From contig NZ_JAPWHE010000007.1 of assembly GCF_027214045.1 (NCBI RefSeq), positions 62,001 to 126,000 on the forward strand: a stretch of DNA of 64,000 nucleotides. The letters are read 5' to 3'. A model generated the notes under the pieces. That model did no database searches and was not told where the DNA came from. It saw only the letters and a list, made by a program, of their open reading frames with translations. Both the position numbers and the translations under genes were made by a program. The stretch is from Castellaniella denitrificans (GTDB taxonomy: Bacteria; Pseudomonadota; Gammaproteobacteria; Burkholderiales; Burkholderiaceae_B). Shown here one piece after another: positions 1,576 through 25,412 of this stretch (positions are counted from its first letter, which is position 1; every line of letters starts with the position of its first letter).

Positions 1576-4734
<3,159 letters not shown>

Positions 4735-4885: not shown

Positions 4886-5245
4886 ATGACAGCAGCCACA
4901 CGCAAGCGCCGGCGGGAAATTCCAGGCACCGTGATCTTCGACGGCGACCTGGCCCGCATCGGCTATGCATTGAACCGCATGTGCTTCAGTTTCAATGCGG
5001 CCGAAAACCGCGAGGCCTTCCAGCGCGACGAGGAAGCCTACATGACGCGCTACCACCTGACGGAAGCTCAGAAAGAGGCCGTCCGCAGCCGCCAGGTCCT
5101 GCGCATGATCGCCGCCGGTGGGCATCCGTACTATCTGGCCAAGCTGGCCGGGATCTTCGGCCTGGACATGCAGGACATCGGCGCCCAGCAGACGGGCGTC
5201 ACCAAAGAGGCCTTCCAGGCCAGACTCATCGCGGCGGGAGCTTGA
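4886..5245 (+). CDS. LigA-like subunit of an extradiol aromatic ring-cleavage dioxygenase
   Basis: This 119-residue helical LigA-family protein contains the family core (NRMCFSFNAAENREAFQRDE ... YYLAKLAGIFGLDMQDI). LigA caps the active site of the LigB catalytic subunit in class III extradiol dioxygenases. ATG 4886 is preceded by AAGGAG. The LigB-like gene starts 2 bp after its stop, so the two form one enzyme. This is the first of two ligAB sets; the second (17899-19160) lies in the pathway operon. The divergent AraC regulator suggests separate induction and perhaps a different substrate, such as gallate or 3-O-methylgallate, which is inference. Confidence 0.85.
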   Translation: MTAATRKRRREIPGTVIFDGDLARIGYALNRMCFSFNAAENREAFQRDEEAYMTRYHLTEAQKEAVRSRQVLRMIAAGGHPYYLAKLAGIFGLDMQDIGAQQTGVTKEAFQARLIAAGA

Positions 5246-5247
5246 TC

Positions 5248-6108
5248 ATGGCGCACATCATCGGCAGCATCAGCACGTCCCACGTGCCGGCCATCGGCGG
5301 GGCGCTGGCCCGCCAGAAACAGCAGGATCCTTACTGGAAGCCCTTTTTCGACGCGTATGGCAAAGCGCGCGAATGGCTGGGCCGTGAGCGCCCGGATGTG
5401 GTGGTCATCCTGCACAATGACCATGGCCTGAATTTCTTCCTCGACAAGATGCCGACGTTCGCAGTGGGCGCCGCGGACGTCTACAGGAACGCGGACGAGG
5501 GTTGGGGCATCCCGCCGCTGGCGGCGGCGCGCGGCTGTGTGGACCTGTCCTGGCATATCGTCGAGACGCTGGTCGAGGACGAGTTCGACATCACCACCTG
5601 TCAGGAAGCCCTGATCGATCATTCGGTGTCGTTGCCCCTGGCGCTGCTCTGGCCGGAAGGCAAGGACGCCGGCGAGTGGCCGGTGGAAATCGTGCCAGTG
5701 TGCATCAACACCGTTCTGGCGCCGTACCCCTCGGCCTCGCGCTGCTACCGGCTGGGGCAGTCGTTGCGGCGCGCGATCGAGTCCTGGGACGACGGCCGGC
5801 GCGTGCTCGTCATTGCCAGCGGGGGCCTGTCGCACCAGCTCGATGGCGAACGCGCCGGCTTTATCAACAAGCCCTTCGATCTGCAGTTCATGGACAGCCT
5901 GGTGGACGATCCGACCTGGATCACCCAGTACGCCAACGAAGATCTGGTCGAGCTCACCGGGACGCAGGGGATCGAGTTGCTGATGTGGGTTGCGGCGCGC
6001 GGCGTGCTGGACGACATGCCGGTCAAGCGCCACCATGCGCACTATCACGTGCCGATCTCCAATACGGCCACCGGACTGCTGGTGCTGGAACCGGCTCAGG
6101 CCGGCTGA
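5248..6108 (+). CDS. LigB-like catalytic subunit of a class III extradiol dioxygenase (divergent paralogue)
   Basis: This 286-residue protein has the expected LigB fold motifs. Fe(II) ligands correspond to His12 (STSHVPAI), His59 (HNDHG) and Glu243 (GTQGIELLMW), and the acid-base His is His196 (SGGLSHQLDG). It is clearly less like characterised LigB/PmdB than the second copy at 18288-19160. For example, the canonical [10 protein letters not shown] loop is replaced by IDHSVSLPLA, and the VNVVQYP substrate region by INTVLAP. It therefore may be a protocatechuate 4,5-dioxygenase isozyme or act on a related catechol such as gallate or a methylgallate. It forms an operon with the LigA-like gene. 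Confidence 0.85.
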   Translation: MAHIIGSISTSHVPAIGGALARQKQQDPYWKPFFDAYGKAREWLGRERPDVVVILHNDHGLNFFLDKMPTFAVGAADVYRNADEGWGIPPLAAARGCVDLSWHIVETLVEDEFDITTCQEALIDHSVSLPLALLWPEGKDAGEWPVEIVPVCINTVLAPYPSASRCYRLGQSLRRAIESWDDGRRVLVIASGGLSHQLDGERAGFINKPFDLQFMDSLVDDPTWITQYANEDLVELTGTQGIELLMWVAARGVLDDMPVKRHHAHYHVPISNTATGLLVLEPAQAG

Positions 6109-7663: not shown

Positions 7664-8692
7664 ATGTTTCCCAAGAATGCCTGGTACGTGGCCTGCACGC
7701 CCGACGAGATCGCGGACAAACCCCTGGGCCGCACGATCTGCGGCCAACCCGTCGCGCTCTACCGGGGCGCGGAGGGCAGGGTTGCGGCGCTCGAGGATTT
7801 CTGTCCTCATCGGGGCGCGGCCCTGTCCCTGGGCGCGGTCGTGGACGGCAACCTGATGTGCGGCTACCATGGCCTGGTCATGGGCTGCGACGGCAAGGCC
7901 GTCTCCATGCCCAAGCAGCGGGTGGGCGGGTTCCCCTGCATCCGCAGCTACCCGGTGGTAGAGCGGCACGGCTTCGTCTGGATCTGGCCGGGCGATCCCG
8001 AACGCGCCGACGAGGCGGCCATCCCCGACCTGTTCTGGGCCCACCATCCCGAATGGGCATACGGCGGGGGGCTTTATCATATCGGCTGCGATTACCGGCT
8101 GATGATCGACAACCTGATGGATCTGACTCACGAAGCCTACGTGCACACCGACAGCATCGGCCAGGGCGAAATCGACGAGGCGCCGGTCCAGACCCGGGTT
8201 GAGGGCGATCAGGTCGTCACCAGCCGCGTCATGCAGGGCATCGTCGCGCCGCCTTTCTGGCAGGCCGCCATGCGGGCCCACGGCCTGGACGACCAGGCGC
8301 TGGTCGACCGTTGGCAGATGTCGCGTTTCACCGCGCCGGGCCACGTGCTGATCGATGTCGGCGTGGCGCTGGCGGGCAAGGGCGGCTTCGAGGCCGATGC
8401 CCGGGACAAGGTTTCGGCGATCGTCGTGGACTTCATGACGCCCGAGACCGAGTCCTCGCACTGGTATTTCTGGGGCATGGCCCGTCATTTCCAGCCCGAT
8501 GACGACGCCCTGACCGATGCGATCCGCGCCGGGCAGGGCAGGATCTTCAGCCAGGACCTGGCCGTGCTGGAGGCGCAGCAGCGCAACCAGCGCAATTTCC
8601 CCGGTCGCCGGCTGCTGGCCTTGAACATCGATGCCGGCGGCGTGCGGGCGCGGCGCATCCTCGACGATTTGATTCAGGCGGAGGCCGCCTGA
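7664..8692 (+). CDS. vanA: Vanillate O-demethylase, oxygenase subunit
   Basis: This Rieske non-haem iron oxygenase subunit demethylates vanillate to protocatechuate with release of formaldehyde. It has 342 residues. The N-terminal Rieske domain binds [2Fe-2S] through Cys47, His49, Cys66 and His69 (CPHRG ... CGYHG). The mononuclear iron site is recognisable in NLMDLTHEAYVH. The opening MFPKNAWYVACTPDEI matches the VanA family closely. ATG 7664 lies 6 nt after AGGAGG; an in-frame TTG at 7658 is less likely. vanB follows after 53 bp. No formaldehyde oxidation gene is seen nearby. Confidence 0.93.
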   Translation: MFPKNAWYVACTPDEIADKPLGRTICGQPVALYRGAEGRVAALEDFCPHRGAALSLGAVVDGNLMCGYHGLVMGCDGKAVSMPKQRVGGFPCIRSYPVVERHGFVWIWPGDPERADEAAIPDLFWAHHPEWAYGGGLYHIGCDYRLMIDNLMDLTHEAYVHTDSIGQGEIDEAPVQTRVEGDQVVTSRVMQGIVAPPFWQAAMRAHGLDDQALVDRWQMSRFTAPGHVLIDVGVALAGKGGFEADARDKVSAIVVDFMTPETESSHWYFWGMARHFQPDDDALTDAIRAGQGRIFSQDLAVLEAQQRNQRNFPGRRLLALNIDAGGVRARRILDDLIQAEAA

Positions 8693-9763: not shown

Positions 9764-10933
9764 GTGAAGCATACGATCGGTAAATTGCTGGCCGCCTGCG
9801 TTTTCGCGGCGGCAGGGGCGGGCGCCGCCCAGGCCCGGGATCTGAAGGTCGGCATGATCCTGCCGCTGTCGGGGCCGTTCGCCTCGACCGGTCAGCAGAT
9901 GGTGAACGGCGCGAAGCTCTATCTGAAGGAGCACGGCGACACGGTGGCGGGCCGCCGGATCGTGCTGATCGAGAAAGACGACACTGGTGTCTCGCCTTCG
10001 ATCAGCAAGCGCCAGGCGCAGACCTTGCTGATCCAGGACAAGGTCGAGGTGCTGGCCGGTTTTGGCCTGACGCCGGGCGCATTCTCGGTCGCGCCCCTGG
10101 CCACCGAGGCCAAGGTGCCGATGGTCGTGATGAATGCCGCCACGTCCTCGATCACGGAAAAGTCGCCCTACATCGTGCGCACGTCCATGACGCTGCCGCA
10201 GGTGGCTGCGCCGATGGCGGGCTGGGCGGCGGCCAACGGCATCCACAAGGTGTACATCGCCGTGGCCGACTATGGGCCGGGCCATGACGCGGCGGCTCAG
10301 TTCAAGAAGACCTTCACCGCCGCGGGCGGCGAGGTGGTGGGTGAGGTCCAGACGCCGCTCACCAGCCCGGATTTCGCGCCGTTCCTGCAGAAGATCAAGG
10401 ACGCCAGGCCGGACGCGATCTTCCTGTTCGTGCCCAACGGCGAACAAGGGGTCGCCTTCGCCAAGAGCTACAAGGAGCGCGCCCTGGCCGACGCCGGCAT
10501 CCGGCTGCTGGCCACCGGCGATGTGGTTACCGAGGACGTGCTCGCGGCCATGGGCGACAACGCCCTGGGCATGATCACCTCGTTCCACTATTCCCAGGCG
10601 CACGATTCGCCTGAGAACAAAGCCTTTGTCCAGGCCTATGCCCGGGCCTATCCCGGCACGCGGCCCAACATGGTGGCCGTGGCGGCTTACGACGGCATGA
10701 GGCTGATCCGCGAAGCGCTGGAAAAAACCAAGGGCGATGCCGGCGGCGATGCTTTCATCGCGGCGGTCAAGGGGCTGAAATGGACTAGCCCGCGCGGCCC
10801 GGTTGAAATCGACTCCCAGACTCGCGACATCATCCAGAACGTCTACATCCGCAAGGTCGAGAAGGTGGGCGGCGTGCTGCAGAATGTGGAGTTCGCCACG
10901 GTCCAGGCCGTCAAGGACCCCGGGAAGATGTAG
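9764..10933 (+). CDS. ABC transporter substrate-binding protein (branched-chain/aromatic acid type), lone copy
   Basis: This 389-residue periplasmic protein has a Sec signal peptide (MKHTIGKLLAACVFAAAGAGAAQA) and a Peripla_BP_6/LivK-type two-lobed binding domain starting at DLKVGMILPLSGPFA. It starts at GTG with AAGGAG upstream. It is strikingly similar to the SBP at 20173-21348, including the near-identical tail WTSPRGPVEID and YIRKVEKV. No permease or ATPase follows it, so it probably docks on the LivHMGF importer encoded 11 kb away. Its place after vanAB suggests vanillate or another aromatic acid as ligand; this is inferred. Confidence 0.88.
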   Translation: MKHTIGKLLAACVFAAAGAGAAQARDLKVGMILPLSGPFASTGQQMVNGAKLYLKEHGDTVAGRRIVLIEKDDTGVSPSISKRQAQTLLIQDKVEVLAGFGLTPGAFSVAPLATEAKVPMVVMNAATSSITEKSPYIVRTSMTLPQVAAPMAGWAAANGIHKVYIAVADYGPGHDAAAQFKKTFTAAGGEVVGEVQTPLTSPDFAPFLQKIKDARPDAIFLFVPNGEQGVAFAKSYKERALADAGIRLLATGDVVTEDVLAAMGDNALGMITSFHYSQAHDSPENKAFVQAYARAYPGTRPNMVAVAAYDGMRLIREALEKTKGDAGGDAFIAAVKGLKWTSPRGPVEIDSQTRDIIQNVYIRKVEKVGGVLQNVEFATVQAVKDPGKM

Positions 10934-13959: not shown

Positions 13960-14026
13960 GACCCGAGCGCTTATGCGCGGGGCGTCCCGCGTCCATAATA
14001 GGCCTCATCAAGCACAGCGTGGTGAC

Positions 14027-15166
14027 ATGATGCAGAAACCCATTCCGGCCTTGTTCATGCGCGGCGGTACATCGCGCGGGCCGTTCTTCCTGGAATCCGA
14101 GCTGCCATCGGACACGGCGGCGCGCGACCGCGTGCTGCTGGCGGTCATGGGTTCTCCCGACCGGCGCCAGATCGACGGCCTGGGCGGCGCCCATCCGCTC
14201 ACCAGCAAAGTCGGCATCGTGCGGCCCGGCACGACGCCGGGCGTGGATCTGGAATTCCTGTTCGCGCAGTTGCAGCCCGACCGCGACACGGTCGACACGA
14301 CGGCCAATTGCGGCAACATGCTGGCGGCGGTCGTGCCCTTCGCGCTGGAGCGCGGCCTGATCAAGGCCCAGGGCGACGAGACCACCGCCCGCGTGCTGAC
14401 CCGCAACACCGGCATGCAGTGCGACATCACCGTCCTGACCCCGATGACGCCCGAGGGCCGGCAGGTGTCCTACGAGGGCGATGCGCGCATCGACGGCGTG
14501 CCCGGCCGTTCGGCGCCGATCACCATCAATTTCCTGGACACGGCCGGCTCGGTGTGTTCGGGGCTGTTGCCTACCGGCCGCGTGCGTGACCGGGTGCGCG
14601 TCGAGCCGCCGGCCGGCGCCGATTTCGAGGCTTTCGAGATCGAGGTCACCTGCATCGACAACGGCATGCCGCTGGTGCTGTTCCGGGCCGCCGACGTGGG
14701 TTGCACCGGGCATGAAACCCCGGCCGAACTGAACGCCGACCTGGGGCTGAAGGCCCGCATCGAGGCCCTGCGGTTGCGCACGGGCGAACTGATGGGCCTG
14801 GGGGACGTGTCGGGGCGCAATTACCCCAAGATGACCCTGGTGTCCGCTCCCCGACAAGGCGGGGCGGTCAATACCCGCAGCTTCATCCCGCATGTCTGTC
14901 ACGAGGCCATCGGCGTGCTGGCGGCGGTGACGGTGGGTACGGCCTGCGTCCTGGAGGGCTCCGTGCCGCACGACCTGGCGCGCCTGCCCCAAGGCGCGCG
15001 CAAGGCGGTGTCGATCGAACACCCCAGCGGCGAGTTCACGGTCGAACTGGAAATCGATCCCCAGGATCCCCAGAAGGTCGTGCGCGCGGCGCTGCTGCGG
15101 ACCGCGCGGCTCATCATGCGCGGCGAGGCGATGGTGCCGGCCTCGACCTGGGCCCAGGCGTGCTGA
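14027..15166 (+). CDS. galD: 4-oxalomesaconate tautomerase (PrpF/GalD family)
   Basis: This 379-residue PrpF-fold isomerase is expected to convert the keto form of 4-oxalomesaconate to the enol form used by the hydratase. It opens with the family motif FMRGGTSRGPFF and has the duplicated diaminopimelate-epimerase-like halves, including a Cys in TTANCGNML. Two adjacent ATGs (14027, 14030) are possible starts and the ribosome-binding site is weak. It is the first gene of the operon, equivalent in position to pmdU of Comamonas. PrpF relatives also isomerise aconitate, but the operon context strongly favours the oxalomesaconate role. Confidence 0.88.
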   Translation: MMQKPIPALFMRGGTSRGPFFLESELPSDTAARDRVLLAVMGSPDRRQIDGLGGAHPLTSKVGIVRPGTTPGVDLEFLFAQLQPDRDTVDTTANCGNMLAAVVPFALERGLIKAQGDETTARVLTRNTGMQCDITVLTPMTPEGRQVSYEGDARIDGVPGRSAPITINFLDTAGSVCSGLLPTGRVRDRVRVEPPAGADFEAFEIEVTCIDNGMPLVLFRAADVGCTGHETPAELNADLGLKARIEALRLRTGELMGLGDVSGRNYPKMTLVSAPRQGGAVNTRSFIPHVCHEAIGVLAAVTVGTACVLEGSVPHDLARLPQGARKAVSIEHPSGEFTVELEIDPQDPQKVVRAALLRTARLIMRGEAMVPASTWAQAC

Positions 15167-15208
15167 TCTGCCTGGTTACGTCGTCACACAGAAAAGGAAT
15201 CGTAGGAC

Positions 15209-16252
15209 ATGAGCAGAAAACCCCTGATCATCGATTGTCACGGCCACTACACGACCGCGCCGCAGGCGCTGGCCGATTGGCGCGACCGGCAGATCGCCGG
15301 CATCCAGGATCCGGCGCAGCGGCCCAGCCCGTCGGACCTGCGCATCGACGACGATGCGCTGCGCGAAAGCATCGAAGCCAATCAGTTGCGCCTGATGCGC
15401 GAACGCGGCTCCGACCTGACGATCTTCTCGCCGCGCGCCAGCTTCATGGCCCACCACATCGGGGACTTCCAGGTGTCCAGTACTTGGGCGGCGATCTGCA
15501 ACGAACTCTGCCACCGGGTCGCGACGCTGTTCCCCGACCAGTTCGTCATGGCCGCGATGCTGCCGCAGTCGCCCGGCGTGGACCCGGCCACCTGCATCCC
15601 GGAACTGGAAAAATGCGTCAAGGAATATGGCGCTGTGGGGATCAACCTGAACCCGGACCCGTCGGGCGGTCACTGGACTTCTCCGCCGCTGTCGGACCGG
15701 TCCTGGTACCCCATCTATGAAAAGATGGTGGAATACGACATCCCGGCGATGATCCACGTGTCCACCAGTTGCAACCCGTGCTTCCACACCACGGGCTCGC
15801 ACTACCTGAATGCCGACACCACGGCCTTCATGCAGTGCCTGACCTCGGACCTGTTCAAGGACTTCCCGACCCTGCGCTTCGTGATCCCGCATGGCGGCGG
15901 CGCGGCGCCCTACCATTGGGGCCGTTTCCGCGGGCTTGCCCAGGCGCTGAAAAAGCCGCTGCTCGACGAGCACCTGCTGAACAATGTGTTCTTCGATACC
16001 TGCGTCTATCACCAGCCGGGCATCGACCTGCTGACCCGCGTGATTCCGGTGAAGAACGTGCTGTTCGCTTCCGAGATGATCGGCGCGGTGCGCGGCATCG
16101 ATCCCGAGACCGGGCACCATTTCGACGACACGAAACGCTATATCGAGGCGGCCGCGACGCTCAGCGACGCCGACCGTTTCCAGATCTACGAGGGCAACGC
16201 GCGCCGCGTGTATCCGCGCCTGGACGCCGCCCTGAAGGCCAAGGGCCTGTAA
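15209..16252 (+). CDS. ligJ: 4-oxalomesaconate hydratase (LigJ/PmdE)
   Basis: This 347-residue amidohydrolase-fold enzyme hydrates 4-oxalomesaconate to 4-carboxy-4-hydroxy-2-oxoadipate. The N-terminal metal motif [11 protein letters not shown] is characteristic of LigJ. Further metal and active-site segments are [24 protein letters not shown] and [11 protein letters not shown]-type strands near the C terminus. It lacks the usual amidohydrolase HxH, replaced by HGH as in LigJ. It begins 42 bp after the tautomerase and is followed 20 bp later by the aldolase. Pseudomonas GalB performs the same step with an unrelated fold, so this cluster uses the Lig/Pmd version. Confidence 0.92.
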
Positions 16253-16272
16253 ACCCCAGGAGAAAGACGGAC

Positions 16273-16968
16273 ATGAGCATTCCCCTCAACCAGCTCGGCA
16301 TCGTCCATCGCACGATCCAGCGCGCCGATCCCGCCGCCGTCGAACAGCTTGCGCGCTTCGGCGTGGCGACCATCCACGAGGCCATGGGACGCGTCGGCCT
16401 GATGAAGCCCTACATGCGTCCGGTCTGGCGCGGCGCGCGGATGTGCGGCACGGCGGTGACCGTGCTGCTGCAGCCGGGCGACAACTGGATGCTGCACGTG
16501 GCCGCCGAACAGATCCGGCCTGGAGACGTGGTCGTGGCCGGCTGCACCGCCGACAGCACCGACGGCTTCTTCGGCGACCTGTTGGCCACTTCGTTCAAGG
16601 CGCGCGGCGCGCGCGGTCTGATCATCGACGGCGGTGTGCGCGACGTCGACACCCTGGAATCCATGGACTTTCCGGTGTTCAGCCGCGCCATCAGCTCCAA
16701 GGGCACCATCAAGGCCACCCTGGGCTCGGTCAACATCCCGGTGGTATGCGCCGGAGCGCCGGTGAATCCGGGCGATGTGGTGGTGGCCGACACCGATGGC
16801 GTGGTCGTCGTGCCCGCCGCCGTCGCCGCCCAGGTCGCCGCCAAGGCCCAGGCCCGCGAAGACAACGAAGGCGCCAAGCGCGAGATCTTCGCTTCGGGGG
16901 TGCTGGGACTAGATTACTACAAGATGCGCGAAGGCCTGGAAAAGGCCGGGCTGAAGTACATCGACTGA
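16273..16968 (+). CDS. ligK: 4-hydroxy-4-methyl-2-oxoglutarate / 4-carboxy-4-hydroxy-2-oxoadipate aldolase
   Basis: This 231-residue RraA-fold class II aldolase splits 4-carboxy-4-hydroxy-2-oxoadipate to pyruvate and oxaloacetate, the last step of the pathway. The catalytic Arg-Asp pair is in [10 protein letters not shown], and the metal- and substrate-binding segment is [17 protein letters not shown] 16273 follows AGGAGAAAG. The equivalent gene in Comamonas is pmdF. Spacing to the next gene is 6 bp, so it is embedded in the operon. Confidence 0.93.
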
Positions 16969-16974
16969 GGACTC

Positions 16975-17895
16975 ATGATGACGACCGTCGAAACCTTCAC
17001 CAAGACTCCGGGCTGGCTGGATTATTACGATGGCCCGAGCCGGCCGCGTTTCCGCCTGCCCGCCGGCGCGGTGGACGCCCATTGCCATGTGTTCGGCCCC
17101 GGCGCGGTGTTCCCCTACGCGCCGGAGCGCAAGTACACGCCTTGCGACGCGCCCAAGGAAGCCTTGTTCGCCCTGCGCGATCACTTGGGCTTCGAGAAGA
17201 ACGTGATCGTGCAGGCGACCTGCCACGGCTCCGACAATCGCGCCCTGGTCGACGCGCTGCGCGCGTCCGGTGGCCGGACGCGCGGGGTGGCGACCGTCTC
17301 GCGCGACGTCACCGACGCCGAACTGCGGGACATGCACGAGGCCGGCGTGCGCGGCACGCGCTTCAATTTCGTCAAGCGCCTGGCCGATTTCACGCCGCGC
17401 GAAGTGCTCGCCGAGATCGCCGCGCGCATCGCCCCGCTGGGCTGGCACGTGGTGGTCTACTTCGAGGCCCAGGACCTGCCAGAACTCTACGATTTCTTCA
17501 CCACGCTGCCGACCACGGTGGTGGTCGACCATATGGGCCGGCCCGATGTGACGAAACCCGTGGACGGTCCGGAGTTCGGCCTGTTCATGCGGATGATGCG
17601 CGAGCACCCGAACGTCTGGAGCAAGGTCAGCTGCCCCGAACGCCTCAGCCAGTCCGGCCCGCCGGCCCTGAACGGCGAGCAGGACGCCTATCGCGACGTC
17701 GTGCCCTTCGCCCGGCGCCTGGTCGAGACCTTTTCCGACCGTGTGCTGTGGGGCACCGACTGGCCGCACCCGAACCTGAAGTCCCACATGCCCGACGACG
17801 GGCTGCTGGTCGATTACATCCCGCGGATCGCGCCGACGGCCGAACTGCAGCGCAAGCTGCTGGTGGACAATCCGAACCGCTTGTACTGGAGTTGA
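16975..17895 (+). CDS. ligI: 2-pyrone-4,6-dicarboxylate hydrolase (LigI/PmdD)
   Basis: This 306-residue amidohydrolase opens the lactone 2-pyrone-4,6-dicarboxylate to 4-oxalomesaconate. It has the N-terminal metal motif DAHCHVFGPG, a conserved VVVDHMGRP strand and the C-terminal catalytic Asp in WGTDWPHPN, as in LigI. The LigI PDC-binding arginines are plausible in RGTRFNF and elsewhere. It lies 6 bp after the aldolase and 3 bp before the dioxygenase alpha subunit. Confidence 0.93.
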   Translation: MMTTVETFTKTPGWLDYYDGPSRPRFRLPAGAVDAHCHVFGPGAVFPYAPERKYTPCDAPKEALFALRDHLGFEKNVIVQATCHGSDNRALVDALRASGGRTRGVATVSRDVTDAELRDMHEAGVRGTRFNFVKRLADFTPREVLAEIAARIAPLGWHVVVYFEAQDLPELYDFFTTLPTTVVVDHMGRPDVTKPVDGPEFGLFMRMMREHPNVWSKVSCPERLSQSGPPALNGEQDAYRDVVPFARRLVETFSDRVLWGTDWPHPNLKSHMPDDGLLVDYIPRIAPTAELQRKLLVDNPNRLYWS

Positions 17896-17898
17896 GCC

Positions 17899-20131
<2,233 letters not shown>

Positions 20132-20172
20132 TCCATCCTTCCATCCCTATCCATACCAACAGGAGCGAGACC

Positions 20173-21348
20173 ATGAAATTCAGCAAAACCCTAGGGGCGG
20201 CGGCCTTGGCCTTCGGCCTGACCACGGCCTTTGGAGCGGCCCGGGCCGCAGACCTGAAGATCGGCATCGTGATGCCGATGTCCGGACCTTTCGCCGCCCA
20301 TGGCAAGCAGATCCAGCATGGCATCGATCTGTACCTTGCCGAGCATGGCGATACGGTCGCCGGCCGCAAGGTCAAGATCCTCATCAAGGACGACACGGGC
20401 ATCGCCCCGGCGGTGGCCAAGCGCCAGGCGCAGGAACTGCTGATCAAGGACAAGGTCGACATCCTGGCCGGCTTCACCCTGACGCCCAACGCCTTCTCCG
20501 TCGCGCCCCTGGCGACCGAGGCCAAAGTGCCGATGGTCGTGCTGAACGCGGCCACGTCCTCGATCACCGAGAAATCCCCCAACATCGTGCGGGTTTCCAT
20601 GACCCTGCCGCAGGACACGGCGCCGATGGCGCAGTGGGCCTACAAGAACGGCATCCGCTCGGTCTACACCCTGGTGTCCGACTACGGTCCGGGACATGAC
20701 GCCGAGCAACAGTTCCAGAAGACCTTCACCAGCCTGGGCGGCAAGATCGTGGGCGAGGTCCGCACCCCCGTCAACACGCCGGATTACGCGCCGTTTCTGC
20801 AGCGCGTGAAGGACGCCCAGCCCGACGCCGTGTTCTTCTTCGTGCCCAATGGCGAACAGGGCGTGGCTCTGGCCAAGGGTTACAAGGAACGCGGCCTCGA
20901 CCAGGCCGGCATCAAGGCGCTGGCCACGGGCGACGTGACCGACGAAGACGTGCTCGACGCCATGGGCGACGCGGCGATCGGCATGATCACGTCCTTCCAC
21001 TATTCCGCCGCGCACGACTCGCCGGAAAACAAGGCCTTCGTGGCCGCCTATCACAAGGCCTTCCCCAAGGATCGTCCCAACTTCGTGGCAGCCGCGGGCT
21101 ATGACGGCATGAACCTGATCTACAAGGCCCTCGAAAAGACCAAGGGCGACGCCAGCGCCGATGCCTTCATGGCGGCGGTCAAGGGCATGAAGTGGACCAG
21201 CCCGCGCGGCCCGGTGGAAATCGATCCGGAAACGCGCGACATCGTACAGAACGTCTACATCCGCAAGGTCGAGAAGGTGGACGGCGTGCTGCAGAACGTC
21301 GAGTTCGACAAGATCGAGGCCGTCAAGGACCCCGGCAAGCAGAAGTGA
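20173..21348 (+). CDS. ABC transporter substrate-binding protein of the aromatic-acid importer
   Basis: This 391-residue periplasmic binding protein has a Sec signal peptide (MKFSKTLGAAALAFGLTTAFGAARA) and a LivK-type domain beginning DLKIGIVMPMSGPFA. ATG 20173 follows AGGAGCGAG. It heads the transport half of the operon and is followed by LivH, LivM, LivG and LivF components. The ligand is probably an aromatic acid such as protocatechuate, vanillate or 4-hydroxybenzoate rather than a branched-chain amino acid, judged from context. A strong hairpin (21355-21400) separates it from the permease gene. Confidence 0.9.
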   Translation: MKFSKTLGAAALAFGLTTAFGAARAADLKIGIVMPMSGPFAAHGKQIQHGIDLYLAEHGDTVAGRKVKILIKDDTGIAPAVAKRQAQELLIKDKVDILAGFTLTPNAFSVAPLATEAKVPMVVLNAATSSITEKSPNIVRVSMTLPQDTAPMAQWAYKNGIRSVYTLVSDYGPGHDAEQQFQKTFTSLGGKIVGEVRTPVNTPDYAPFLQRVKDAQPDAVFFFVPNGEQGVALAKGYKERGLDQAGIKALATGDVTDEDVLDAMGDAAIGMITSFHYSAAHDSPENKAFVAAYHKAFPKDRPNFVAAAGYDGMNLIYKALEKTKGDASADAFMAAVKGMKWTSPRGPVEIDPETRDIVQNVYIRKVEKVDGVLQNVEFDKIEAVKDPGKQK

Positions 21349-21354
21349 TCGCCG

Positions 21355-21400
21355 GCCCGGGCGCGGCCCCCGTCCCGATGGCGGTGGCCGGCGCCCGGGC
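21355..21400 (+). promoter_or_regulatory. Intercistronic GC hairpin between binding protein and permease
   Basis: GCCCGGGCGC (21355-21364) and GCGCCCGGGC (21391-21400) are perfect complementary arms with a 26-nt loop, starting just after the binding-protein stop. Such hairpins often protect the upstream mRNA or partly terminate transcription, giving more binding protein than permease. That role is inferred. Confidence 0.5.
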
Positions 21401-21438
21401 GGTCCGGAACCGGATCCCTCCCAGTCCTGGAATCAATC

Positions 21439-22293
21439 ATGACTATTCTCTTTGACGGCATCGCCGCAGGCATGCTGCTGTTCCTGATCAGCGTCGGCCT
21501 GTCGGTGACGCTGGGCCTGATGAATTTCGTCAACCTGGCTCATGGCGCTTTCGCCATGCTGGGAGGCTATGCCTGCGTCGTGCTGCTCAACGACTACGGC
21601 GTCCCGTTTCTGGCGACGCTGCCGGCGGCCATCCTCGTGCCCGCCCTGGCCGGCATCGTGCTGGAACGCACCCTTTACCGTCGCCTGTACGCGGCCTCTG
21701 ATCTGGACCAGGTGCTGTTTTCCATCGGCCTGGTGTTCATGTCCGTGGCGGCCGCCCACTATTTCTTCGGCGCCCAGCAGCAGCCGCTGCACCTGCCGGA
21801 ATTCCTGAGCGGCCAGATCCATCTGCCCGGCGTGGACGTCGGCGTCTATCGCCTGTTCCTGATCGCGGCCGGCCTGGCGGTGGCCGTGCTGCTGCAGTGG
21901 TCCGTGATCCGCACGTCTTTCGGCGCGCGCCTGCGCGCGGCCGTGGACAACCAGCGCGTCGCGCGCGGCATGGGCATCGACGTCAATCGCGTCTTCAGCC
22001 TGACCTTCGCCCTGGGCTCCGCACTGGCCGGCCTGGGCGGGGCGCTGGGGGTCGAGATGCTGGGGCTGGATCCTGAATTCCCCGTGAAATACATGGTGTA
22101 CTTCCTCATCGTCGTTTCCGTGGGGGGCAGCGGCAACATCCTCGGCTCGCTGTATGCCGCCATCCTGCTCGGCGTGGCCGACGTCGCCGGCAAATACTAT
22201 GTGCCGCAGATCGGCGCCTTCATCATCTATGCCGTCATGGTGGCGACGCTGATCTTCCGCCCCCATGGCCTGTTCGGCCGTCCTCACAAATAG
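21439..22293 (+). CDS. ABC transporter inner-membrane permease, LivH type
   Basis: This 284-residue integral membrane protein opens with LFDGIAAGMLLFLISVGLSVTLGLMNFVNLAHG-type LivH sequence, has about eight hydrophobic segments and carries the family loop GSALAGLGGALGVEMLGLDPEF. It pairs with the LivM permease encoded 8 bp later to form the import channel. Genes downstream supply the two ATPases. The substrate is inferred to be an aromatic acid from the operon. Confidence 0.9.
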   Translation: MTILFDGIAAGMLLFLISVGLSVTLGLMNFVNLAHGAFAMLGGYACVVLLNDYGVPFLATLPAAILVPALAGIVLERTLYRRLYAASDLDQVLFSIGLVFMSVAAAHYFFGAQQQPLHLPEFLSGQIHLPGVDVGVYRLFLIAAGLAVAVLLQWSVIRTSFGARLRAAVDNQRVARGMGIDVNRVFSLTFALGSALAGLGGALGVEMLGLDPEFPVKYMVYFLIVVSVGGSGNILGSLYAAILLGVADVAGKYYVPQIGAFIIYAVMVATLIFRPHGLFGRPHK

Positions 22294-22301
22294 GCCCCGA
22301 C

Positions 22302-23354
22302 ATGACGACCTCCAACCCGATCGGGACGCCGTCCCATCCCCATCCCGGCGCGGCGGCCGCGCTCGACCGCTATCGCCGCTCGGCCCGCTGGAAGCCGCTG
22401 GAATACCTGTTCTGGTGCCTGCCGGTCCTGGCGTATTTCGCCTTCCCGGGCAATTATCTGCTGCTCAGCCAGATCGCCATCACCAGCCTGTTCGCCCTGT
22501 CGCTGGACCTGATCTTCGGCTATGCGGGGATCATTTCACTGGGCCACGCCGCCTTCTTCGGTGTGGGCGCCTACACTGTGGGCCTGCTGGGCTCGAACGG
22601 CTACGGGGACCCCCTGCTGGGCCTGGTTCTGGCGGCTGCGGCCGCCGCCGCGCTGGGTTTTCTCAGCAGCTTCCTGCTGCTGCGCGGCAGCGATCTGTCG
22701 CGCCTGATGGTGACGCTGGGCGTTGCGCTGATGCTCTACGAACTGGCCAACAAGTTCACCAGCGTCACCGGCGGGGTGGACGGCATGCCGGGCGTCGAGA
22801 TCAAACCGATCCTGGGCCTGTTCGACTTCGACATGTTCGGCCGCGTCGGCTATGTCTATTCGGTCATCGTGCTGTTCGTGCTGTTCTGGTTCGCCCGCCG
22901 TCTGGTGCATTCGCCATTCGGCCAGAGTCTGCGCGGGATTCGCATGAATGCCCTGCGCATGCCGGCGCTGGGCGTGCCCGTGAACCGCCGCCTGGTCACG
23001 GTCTACACCATCGGCGCGGGCTATGCCGGAGTGGCCGGCGCGCTCCTGGCGCAGACGAATGCCTTCGTCTCGCTGGACGTGCTCAGCTTCCAGCGTTCGG
23101 CCGACCTGCTGCTGATCCTGATCCTGGGCGGGGCGGGACATCTGTACGGCGGATTGCTGGGCGCCATCGTCTTCGTCATCGCCAACTATCTCTTGTCGGA
23201 CATGAATCCCCAGTACTGGCAGTTCTGGCTGGGCCTGATCCTGGTGCTGGTGGTGCTGTTCGCCCGGGGCGGCATCCTGGGGACGGCAAGACTATGGATC
23301 GAATCTTCACGCCAACGCGCCCAGTCGCGCGCCCGCACGGAGTCCCCCTCATGA
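22302..23354 (+). CDS. ABC transporter inner-membrane permease, LivM type
   Basis: This 350-residue permease has an N-terminal cytoplasmic tail and many hydrophobic segments. The LivM hallmark SLGHAAFFGVGAYTVGLL and the EAA-like loop GVPVNRRLVTVYTIGAGYAGVAGALLAQ are both present. Its stop overlaps the ATG of the next ATPase gene (ATGA). It forms the second half of the membrane channel with the LivH-type protein. Confidence 0.9.
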   Translation: MTTSNPIGTPSHPHPGAAAALDRYRRSARWKPLEYLFWCLPVLAYFAFPGNYLLLSQIAITSLFALSLDLIFGYAGIISLGHAAFFGVGAYTVGLLGSNGYGDPLLGLVLAAAAAAALGFLSSFLLLRGSDLSRLMVTLGVALMLYELANKFTSVTGGVDGMPGVEIKPILGLFDFDMFGRVGYVYSVIVLFVLFWFARRLVHSPFGQSLRGIRMNALRMPALGVPVNRRLVTVYTIGAGYAGVAGALLAQTNAFVSLDVLSFQRSADLLLILILGGAGHLYGGLLGAIVFVIANYLLSDMNPQYWQFWLGLILVLVVLFARGGILGTARLWIESSRQRAQSRARTESPS

Positions 23355-24100
23355 GCCCCGTCCTGCAGACCCACGGCCTGGTGCGCCGCTTCGGCGGTTT
23401 CGTGGCCACCGACCATGTCGACCTGTCGATCGCGCCCGGCGCGCGACATGCCCTGATCGGACCCAATGGCGCCGGCAAGACCACCCTGATCAACCTGCTG
23501 ACCGGCTACCTGGAGCCCAGCGAAGGCCGGGTCGAACTGATGGGGCGCGACGTCACGCGTATGCCGCAGTACGAGCGCGCCCGCCTGGGGCTGGTGCGCA
23601 CCTTCCAGATCAACCAGTTGTTCATGGACATGACGGTGCTCGAATCCGTCGCGCTGGCCGTCAGCGAGCGCAGCGGGCTGGGCACGCGCTGGTGGCGTCC
23701 GCTGTCCGCACGGGGTGAGGTCATCGATGAAGCCGCCGCCATCCTGGAGCGTCTGAAGCTGTTGTCCGACGCGCATGCGACCACGCGCAACCTCGCCTAT
23801 GGCCGCCAGCGCCTGATCGAGATCGCCTTGGCCCTGGCGCTGCGGCCCAAGGTCCTGCTGCTCGACGAGCCCGCGGCGGGCGTGCCGACCGGTGAGAGCC
23901 AGGAACTGTTCGAGACCATCGCCCAGTTGCCGCGCGACGTCACCATCCTGCTGATCGAACACGACATGAACCTGGTTTTCCGCTTTGCCGAACGCATTTC
24001 CGTCCTGGTGTCGGGCGCGCTGCTGCTCGAGGATGCCCCCGAGGTGATCGCGCATCACCCGCGCGTCAAGGAAGTCTACCTGGGAGAAGCCCATGTCTGA
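23351..24100 (+). CDS. ABC transporter ATPase, LivG type
   Basis: This 249-residue ATPase has Walker A (GPNGAGKTT), a Q-loop region (VRTFQINQLF), Walker B (LLLDEPAAG) and the H-loop (LIEHDMNLVF). The usual LSGGQ signature is altered: at its position the sequence reads NLAYGRQRLIEIA, as in many LivG proteins. ATG 23351 overlaps the LivM stop. It partners with the unusual LivF-hemerythrin protein encoded next, with an 8-bp overlap. Confidence 0.92.
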   Translation: MSPVLQTHGLVRRFGGFVATDHVDLSIAPGARHALIGPNGAGKTTLINLLTGYLEPSEGRVELMGRDVTRMPQYERARLGLVRTFQINQLFMDMTVLESVALAVSERSGLGTRWWRPLSARGEVIDEAAAILERLKLLSDAHATTRNLAYGRQRLIEIALALALRPKVLLLDEPAAGVPTGESQELFETIAQLPRDVTILLIEHDMNLVFRFAERISVLVSGALLLEDAPEVIAHHPRVKEVYLGEAHV

Positions 24101-25412
24101 GCTCTTGCGCCTGGAAAACGTCTGGGCGGGCTACGGCGACGCCGTGGTCCTGGAGGACCTGTCCCTGTCGCTGGCGGCCGGCGAGAGTCTGGCGCTGCTG
24201 GGGCGCAACGGCATGGGCAAGACGACGCTGCTGGCCACCCTGATGGGCGCCACCCGGTTGCGTCGCGGCCGCATTGTCTTCCAGGGCGAGGACATCGCCC
24301 ACGTGCCCAGCCATCGTCGCGCCCGGGCCGGCCTGGGCTGGGTGCCGCAGGAACGCGATATTTTCCGTTCCCTGACCGTCGAGGAAAACCTGACCGTGGT
24401 CGCCCGTCCGGGCGAGTGGACCCTGGAGCGGGTCTACGCCATGTTTCCCCGATTGCGAGAACGCCGCGCGAACCTGGGCAGCCAGTTGTCGGGCGGCGAG
24501 CAACAGATGCTGGCCATGGGCCGGGCGCTGATGCTCAACCCCAAGGTCCTGCTGCTGGACGAGCCTCTCGAAGGCCTGGCGCCCCTGATCGCCCAGGAAC
24601 TGCTGCACATCATCGACCGCATGGTCTCGGAAGGCCGCATGACCGTCATCCTGGTCGAGCAGCACGCCCGCCAGATCCTGCCGATCACGCGCCGGGCCCT
24701 GGTGCTGGAGCGCGGCCGGGTGGTCTATTCGGGAGACAGCGCGGAACTGCTGCGCGATGGCGCGGCGCTGGATCGCTGGCTGGGCGCGGGCTCCACGGAA
24801 GCGGATGCCGCGCCACGCAAGGCCCCGGCCGAGCGCATTCCCGCCATCGAGGCGATTCATGACGAGCACCGGGCCCTCGCGGCCATCCTGAACGGCCTGT
24901 CGCACATCGTGCAGGACATCGAGGACGGCAAGCTCGAGCCGGACTATACCCTGTTGGCCAGCATGATCGAATACATCGCCGAGATGCCCGACAAGCTGCA
25001 CCATCCCAAGGAAGACCGGATTTTCGCCCTGCTGCGGACCAAGACGCGGGACGAGGACGAGTACCTGGACCGGCTCGAGGCCGAGCACCGGGACACGGTC
25101 CACGCCACGGGGCGCCTGGATCGCGCCCTGGTCAGCTATGTACAGGGCGGGGCGGCGAACTTCCCGGGTTTCCGGGACGCCGTGCGCGCCTATATCGCCG
25201 ACGAATGGGTGCACCTGAACACCGAGGAGCGCCATATCCTGCCGGCGGCCCGAAGACTGTTCGACGCGGACGAATGGGATGCGATCAACGCCGACTTCGT
25301 GCGCAATGGAGATCCCTGGTCCGGTCCGGGCAATCGCTATGCGGATCTGTTCCGGCGCATCACCAGTCTGGCGCCGGCGCCCATCGGCGTGGGCGGCCAG
25401 CCGCCGCGTTGA
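24093..25412 (+). CDS. LivF-type ABC ATPase fused to a C-terminal hemerythrin-like domain
   Basis: This protein has 439 residues, against about 235 for ordinary LivF. Residues 1-232 form a complete ATPase with Walker A GRNGMGKT (37-44), signature LSGGE (132-136), Walker B LLLDEP (153-158) and VEQH at the H-loop. After a short linker (about 233-250), residues 251-400 look like a hemerythrin/HHE di-iron domain: HDEH (256-259), LHHPKE (302-307), EHRDTVH (331-337) and HLNTEERH (374-381). No stop or frameshift separates the parts. The domain may bind iron and O2 or NO and couple uptake of aromatic acids to O2 availability; that function is inferred. Confidence 0.9.
   Translation: MSELLRLENVWAGYGDAVVLEDLSLSLAAGESLALLGRNGMGKTTLLATLMGATRLRRGRIVFQGEDIAHVPSHRRARAGLGWVPQERDIFRSLTVEENLTVVARPGEWTLERVYAMFPRLRERRANLGSQLSGGEQQMLAMGRALMLNPKVLLLDEPLEGLAPLIAQELLHIIDRMVSEGRMTVILVEQHARQILPITRRALVLERGRVVYSGDSAELLRDGAALDRWLGAGSTEADAAPRKAPAERIPAIEAIHDEHRALAAILNGLSHIVQDIEDGKLEPDYTLLASMIEYIAEMPDKLHHPKEDRIFALLRTKTRDEDEYLDRLEAEHRDTVHATGRLDRALVSYVQGGAANFPGFRDAVRAYIADEWVHLNTEERHILPAARRLFDADEWDAINADFVRNGDPWSGPGNRYADLFRRITSLAPAPIGVGGQPPR

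Follow-up and report, generated by a model that had tools for sequence, protein, structure and literature searches.

A LivF-type ABC transporter ATPase fused to a hemerythrin-type HHE domain in a protocatechuate operon of Castellaniella denitrificans, with reverse-order fusions and adjacent gene pairs in relatives

The association of a hemerythrin-type gene with aromatic-acid transporters has been described before. PMC6449761 (2019), in the part available, reports that in BenR, AphS or BoxR regulons of the studied Rhodocyclales and of Rhodoferax ferrireducens a COG3945/HHE gene accompanies putative transporters of the ABC type for benzoate, calls the role of the gene unclear, and proposes protection or the storage or scavenging of O2; the words 'fusion' and 'fused' are absent from its main text as available. 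The locus analyzed here resembles that system, as far as the available part describes it, in that an HHE domain is encoded with an aromatic-type HAAT operon in the same kind of setting, but the HHE is a gene of its own there and part of LivF here. The first-pass annotation of our locus knew of no described system of this kind, a statement that, as worded, is not supported in view of the pairing of HHE and benzoate ABC transporter in the available part of PMC6449761. The pairing itself is thus already published there, and what is new here is the occurrence of fusions in opposite orders, their separate origin and the recurrence of the operonic pairing. A survey of hemerythrin architectures (PMC4919030) does not contain 'ABC' or 'transporter' in its main text as available, and PMC12844201 names, as a stress candidate in Rhodopseudomonas palustris, a hemerythrin-domain protein that the passage concerned does not connect with a transporter. 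In the open-licence literature we found no report of a LivF-HHE or HHE-LivF fusion.

ABC ATPases of the HAAT/LivF kind serve importers of branched-chain amino acids, urea and aromatic acids, and the present protein shares their motifs and their livK-H-M-G-F operon; an ordinary LivF, in contrast, has about 235 residues (237 in the Castellaniella genome G006) and no extra domain. Like MalK, ModC and MetN, the protein has an additional domain behind the ATPase, which could have a regulatory role, but the C-terminal regulatory domains of those proteins have other folds and sense protein or substrate, and are not di-iron bundles.

The fusion gene, its operon and a proposed role

The window, which is the whole analyzed stretch of 64,000 nucleotides (contig NZ_JAPWHE010000007.1, positions 62,001 to 126,000), contains a tight run of genes at 13973-25412 with gaps of -8 to +90 bp, in the order PrpF-type isomerase, LigJ-, LigK- and LigI-type enzymes, LigA, LigB, LigC, LivK, LivH, LivM, LivG and, last, LivF-HHE:

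13973..17895, + strand: PrpF/PmdU-type isomerase, LigJ- and LigI-type amidohydrolases and LigK-type aldolase (PrpF and Amidohydro_2 Pfam matches; the Lig/Pmd names are our presumption, that of LigK from position and sequence only)
17899..20131, + strand: ligA and ligB (protocatechuate 4,5-dioxygenase) and a dehydrogenase that we take to be of the ligC type (family matches; the dehydrogenase by Pfam domains)
20170..21348, + strand: livK, periplasmic binding protein (Peripla_BP_6)
21439..23354, + strand: livH and livM, permeases (livH by BPD_transp_2; livM by position and 78-97% homologues in relatives)
23351..24100, + strand: livG, ATPase (PF00005; 8-bp overlap with the fusion gene)

The first-pass annotation had placed VanA, LigAB and PobA near the fusion, and all three are there: LigAB within the operon (17899-19160), VanA upstream of it (7664-8689, with a Fer2 reductase and another periplasmic binding protein behind it as far as 10930) and PobA at 2630-3793. 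The setting is one of O2-dependent aromatic catabolism. A BenE-type transporter is encoded on the opposite strand just downstream of the fusion gene. The importer is probably one for aromatic acids from plants and pollutants. The second liv-type binding-protein gene (9764-10930), which adjoins VanA and the reductase, has no permease among the scanned neighbours, and its product may share the pmd-liv importer. Between PobA and VanA there is also a second LigB-family ring-cleavage dioxygenase (4981-6105, a 375-aa frame).

The fusion gene (24093-25412, + strand) is a single open reading frame of 439 aa without an internal stop. Pfam scanning of the protein identified ABC_tran (PF00005) at residues 20-159 (E = 1.9e-31) and Hemerythrin (PF01814) at residues 252-386 (E = 3e-12; 47.6 bits against a cut-off of 25.3); three further PF01814 matches occur in the genome. 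The parts of the gene are as follows:

24093..24785, + strand: LivF-type ABC ATPase domain, residues 1-231 (PF00005; fold match; conserved motifs)
24786..24839, + strand: flexible linker, residues 232-249 (pLDDT below 50 at 232-246; low identity)
24840..25259, + strand: HHE (hemerythrin-type) helical bundle, residues 250-389 (PF01814; predicted model)
24867..25226, + strand: putative di-iron ligands H259, H303, E307, H332, H374 and E378 (conservation; by analogy)
25260..25394, + strand: C-terminal helices, residues 390-434 (conserved in the HHE family past the end of the Pfam domain)

The assignment of the N-terminal part to the LivF/HAAT ATPases follows from the ABC_tran match, from Walker A (37-44), the LSGGE signature (132-136), Walker B (153-158), the Q-loop and the H-loop, and from the co-encoded livK, livH, livM and livG. 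The three motif positions are those given in the first-pass annotation, and its reading of LivF and HHE in a single frame is confirmed by the 439-aa frame, both Pfam domains and their conservation in the genus. Walker A and B, the signature, Q86, E157 and H191 are invariant in eight aligned fused orthologues including the window copy, and the top PDB fold match is 1ji0 (40% identity). The domain scored below the cut-offs of the NCBIfam equivalog models for LivF (195.3 bits against 441) and UrtE (224.1 against 285.8); by its sequence, it is a HAAT-type ATPase outside both curated equivalogs.

Our best guess, still a tentative one, is that the HHE domain is an O2/redox-responsive module that tunes the importer. 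The fusion protein would serve a HAAT-type ABC importer as its LivF ATPase and would carry a di-iron HHE domain at the C-terminus, and the importer would probably take up one or more aromatic acids of the protocatechuate 4,5-cleavage pathway, as the operon suggests. The HHE site would bind or react with O2, the resulting state of the tethered domain would tune ATP hydrolysis or the LivFG dimer, and uptake would thereby be matched to the O2 needed by VanA, PobA and LigAB. Here we infer the substrate, the binding of iron, O2 as the ligand, and the effect on transport with its direction. In a wider wording, the HHE is best read as a di-iron O2/redox module by which O2-dependent aromatic uptake would be tuned or protected. 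If this is true, no ABC importer known to us before would be gated by a gas or redox sensor with bound iron, and the HHE gene of the benzoate operons, as the available part of PMC6449761 describes them, would gain a partner and a role that can be tested. The natural fusions would allow ATPase activity and di-iron spectroscopy to be measured in one polypeptide, and the question bears on the low-oxygen degradation of lignin products and pollutants.

The HHE domain and its putative iron site

The structure model of the full-length protein (mean pLDDT 86.6, pTM 0.55; pLDDT below 50 at residues 232-246) predicts two well-formed domains joined by a flexible tether, and the pTM value together with the disordered linker gives no sign of a fixed inter-domain contact. 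Modelled alone, the HHE domain reached a pLDDT of 91.2 and a pTM of 0.86. The full-length model also predicts helices at 392-404 and 412-426, beyond the Pfam domain, where W395, F402, P408, G411 and P428 are identical in 94 or 95 of the 95 aligned HHE rows.

The His/Glu site reported in the first-pass annotation appears intact as a putative site of six residues. H259, H303, E307, H332, H374 and E378 are each invariant in 95/95 rows, two of which are copies; the first three were contained in the seeds of the pattern search described below, and the last three lay outside them. We take these residues to be iron ligands by analogy. The predicted model and the conserved residues together describe a four-helix bundle with His/Glu ligands, and the domain likely holds two irons. 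Given such a putative di-metal site and several iron enzymes in the neighbourhood, the domain could instead hold or deliver Fe(II) for the ring-cleavage and Rieske enzymes, or sense iron; a tether to a transporter ATPase would then have no obvious purpose, and we consider iron handling the least likely of the alternatives.

Comparison of the HHE model with the PDB by Foldseek gave no match at E <= 0.001. The first rank was 3cax (PF0695; probability 0.99, E = 0.18) and the fourth 2p0n (NMB1532; probability 1.00, TM 0.65/0.77, E = 0.57), both presumably HHE proteins, with designed and unrelated bundles ranking between and after them; a sequence search of the PDB at E = 1 matched the window domain to no HHE protein. 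The ligands of O2-carrying hemerythrin and bacteriohemerythrin number seven, with HxxxH in the third helix among them. Position 336, the site of the seventh ligand, is variable across the 95 rows, so this ligand is not conserved in the HHE family. The window domain shares the HHE fold, and a possible role with O2, with bacteriohemerythrin and with the hemerythrin-type O2 sensors of chemoreceptors, but it differs from bacteriohemerythrin in that seventh ligand and in matching neither of the models NF033749 and TIGR02481 at E = 5; the related domain of locus L088 scored 17.2 and 13.8 bits against their cut-offs of 84 and 51.75. The only match of the window domain in the NCBIfam model test was to a PA2171-family persister protein (14 bits against 190).

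YtfE-type proteins have the ligand pattern H / HxxxE / H / HxxxE, and the six residues of the window domain follow this pattern, which would speak for an NO-responsive or YtfE/RIC-like repair module that protects the pathway or shuts it under denitrification. Weak matches to the RIC model TIGR03652 in three of five HHEs tested (two standalone and one in a reverse-order fusion), NirK over the cut-off in 10/10 genomes of the genus, and one NnrS gene among the neighbours of related HHE genes without livF point the same way. However, the window domain, unlike the YtfE/RIC proteins, did not match this model at E = 5, and the weak matches reached at most 21.2 bits against a cut-off of 204.7. Outside the genus, a clear nitrite reductase was found in 2/7 genomes with the module (NirK in G134 and NirS in G271, a NirS match being counted as clear if nearly full-length and of at least 490 bits, as PF02239 also lists many short weak matches), and the background in the whole family is NirK over the cut-off in 103/268 genomes. 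As nitrite-reductase genes are not associated with the module outside the genus, NO is not favoured, and we regard such a module as improbable.

Recurrence and separate origins of the LivF-HHE pairing

The first-pass annotation had allowed for the fusion being absent from all relatives. This is not the case, since 8/10 Castellaniella genomes encode it, counting the window genome and a copy in G007 that ends at a contig end, and the six other fusion genomes opened have kept the operon in full, with all genes between PrpF and LivF-HHE. Against six relatives, dN/dS (NG86) was 0.06-0.18 for LivF and 0.11-0.26 for HHE, indicating purifying selection on both domains, and the linker drifts (11-67% identity). 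An artefactual or frameshift fusion is ruled out by the several genomes and by this selection. In G006 the halves lie apart in the same operon, as a livF of 237 aa, a phenol-2-monooxygenase-type gene and an HHE gene of 199 aa that keeps all six putative ligand residues. This copy (L040) is nested in the fused clade on both the HHE tree and the LivF tree, so it appears to result from a fission after which the HHE persisted; it looks like a split of the fusion with an inserted gene. The tenth genome, G004, has solely the reverse HHE-LivF fusion (hereafter N-fusion, as opposed to the C-fusion of the window). C-fusions also occur in metagenome-assembled genomes labelled Comamonas (L037), Oxalobacteraceae (L043), Burkholderiales (L041) and Pseudomonadota (L035). 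In G006, a second LivK gene follows the separated HHE gene (L009, 12107-15506).

We searched for the architecture and its neighbourhoods, as the first-pass annotation had suggested, and found the fusion in relatives together with N-fusions and adjacent gene pairs. A pattern-seeded contig scan gave 122 loci; the best 80, a set biased towards close kin because the seeds were drawn from the fused family, comprised 10 in-frame LivF-HHE fusions, 61 loci where the HHE is a gene of its own directly downstream of livF (same strand, match-to-match distance -60 to 300 bp), one split and eight without a livF link. A rough reckoning puts the chance that a random gene directly follows one of the LivF type well below 1%. 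A profile search of 268 genomes at the family level found any HHE match in 22 genomes, a close one (E < 1e-30) in only 17, and ten N-fusion loci. Searches of 399 and 398 genomes at the order and phylum levels added 56 HHE loci, of which nine are N-fusions, three have a LivF match just upstream and 44 have no LivF match, as judged in flanks of about 1.5 kb. The N-fusions thus amount to 19 loci in five families (f1, f17, f20, f48 and f62). At the order level, 19 of the 28 top HHE loci (window and sister left out) have no LivF match in such flanks. The fusion and its recurrence are solid; the 44 of 56 loci without a livF neighbour rule out an HHE family always tied to livF and mean that the link is recurrent, not general. 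Among these loci, L165 (LivF match upstream) has a 452-aa frame at a contig edge and may be an N-fusion, and near L155 (no LivF match) there is a gene for a different kind of ABC ATPase.

The domain was also sought where the nearest relatives of the window LivF outside the genus (52-65% identity) are encoded. The 16 liv operons concerned, 14 from the family and two from the order, had no HHE match in stretches of 7-18 kb (in L023 reaching only 0.4 kb behind livF), so the domain is accessory and dispensable for such transporters. Among the plasmid matches listed, up to 5000 records, no fused copy was found; the one record that covers 80% of the query encodes livF and the HHE as separate neighbouring genes. 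In the three plasmid HHE loci opened, the HHE gene of Azospirillum oryzae lies directly after liv genes, that of B510 is about 2-7 kb away from a liv operon of the opposite strand, and that of KH32C has no liv operon within the stretch viewed.

On the HHE tree the N-fusions cluster together and the C-fusions cluster together, and a single clade of all fusions was not rejected (AU; p = 0.26, 32 rows including the split L040 and L165). On the LivF tree the single clade was rejected (AU; p = 3.2e-7, 84 rows of which 21 are fused, including ten of the 19 N-fusions). The copies L120 and L121 were left out of the large HHE tree, and L107, L120 and L121 of the LivF test. The window LivF is 69-76% identical to several unfused LivFs with HHE as a separate next gene and 42-44% identical to the N-fused LivFs, and the LivF tree indicates that the reverse-order fusion has a separate origin. 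The C-fusions adjoin unfused livF-HHE pairs in both trees, as would fit a neutral loss of the stop between neighbouring genes without functional coupling, and the unconstrained linker and the HHE tree taken alone are also compatible with it. Such a loss yields one order only, however, so the reverse order needs another cause; purifying selection persists on both domains, and the association recurs with different LivF groups. We consider a neutral fusion unlikely, about as much so as an NO module. In Sheuella amnicola (L079), an HHE of the Aromatoleum/Rhodoferax type stands beside a LivF of the N-fusion type, which looks like a swap of HHE partners among transporters.

The existence of a reverse-order fusion of separate origin, together with adjacent separate genes, lends further weight to a joint action of the HHE and the transporter ATPase. 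A local store or scavenger of O2, or a protectant of the Fe(II) ring-cleavage enzymes, with no effect on the ATPase, is nevertheless possible and ranks closely behind O2/redox tuning. This role is the one proposed for the separate gene in the available part of PMC6449761, and it agrees with the flexible linker, with the separate HHE gene in 61/80 of the pattern-selected loci and with its retention after the fission in G006; it does not account for the repeated fusion with LivF, in either order, when an oxygenase would be the expected partner. The two fusion orders and the frequent side-by-side genes suggest, in favour of the tuning reading, that the probably iron-binding domain may contribute to adjusting uptake to the O2 used in ring opening. 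A bolder form of that reading is somewhat more doubtful: the ATPase would have its own di-iron O2/redox sensor, through which the co-substrate of ring opening would itself switch uptake post-translationally, and the arrangement would have been invented at least twice in opposite orders, with a two-gene version in many aromatic degraders.

Genomic settings of the related HHE domains

Several LivF-linked forms stand in O2-dependent settings, a point in favour of the proposed tuning; the phenol-2-monooxygenase-type gene between the split halves in G006 is one example. The operons of relatives with LivF-linked forms also contain lig genes. The N-fusion of G003 adjoins an FAD-dependent oxidoreductase over the cut-off (PRK08132; of the aromatic-hydroxylase kind), in a locus with PaaX, PaaN and PaaG over their cut-offs and a BenC/PaaE-like reductase below its cut-off; this setting rules out a confinement of the fusion to the pmd operon. 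On the A. oryzae plasmid, a cupin protein, a fumarylacetoacetate hydrolase family protein, 3-hydroxybenzoate 6-monooxygenase, maleylacetoacetate isomerase and liv-type genes are followed by a 'hemerythrin domain-containing protein'. Other LivF-linked forms lie near meta-cleavage enzymes (L107 and L088, in the latter a partial gene just below the cut-off), benzoylformate decarboxylase (L041) or PaaN (G122). Scanning of 78 of the 102 genes called downstream of the module (24 left out) revealed no common theme, and some of these genes, such as those of L056, are not aromatic.

Several points thus speak against the proposed tuning of the importer: the flexible linker, the split in G006, the liv operons without HHE, the unlinked kin, the lack of a downstream theme, the rarity of the domain and the absence of the seventh ligand.

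Around the HHE kin without livF, the Pfam domains in 61 open reading frames from 25 loci (59 of 82 flanking frames and two HHE frames; not all independent) were E1-E2 ATPase (5), intradiol Dioxygenase_C (4), Usp (3), FixG_C (3), P450 (1) and NnrS (1). The HHE genes without livF at L186, L187 and L188 adjoin long frames; FixG-type and E1-E2 ATPase domains are among the pooled neighbours, a hint of a cbb3-type low-oxygen setting for which the assignment of the domains to these three loci is a guess. At L106 (1317-4301), a frame of about 995 aa without a LivF match carries an HHE match at its C-terminal end. In Azoarcus sp. KH32C (L213, 5533-6558), a gene annotated as universal stress protein is not part of a transporter, but it contains an HHE match and so places a related domain in another module.
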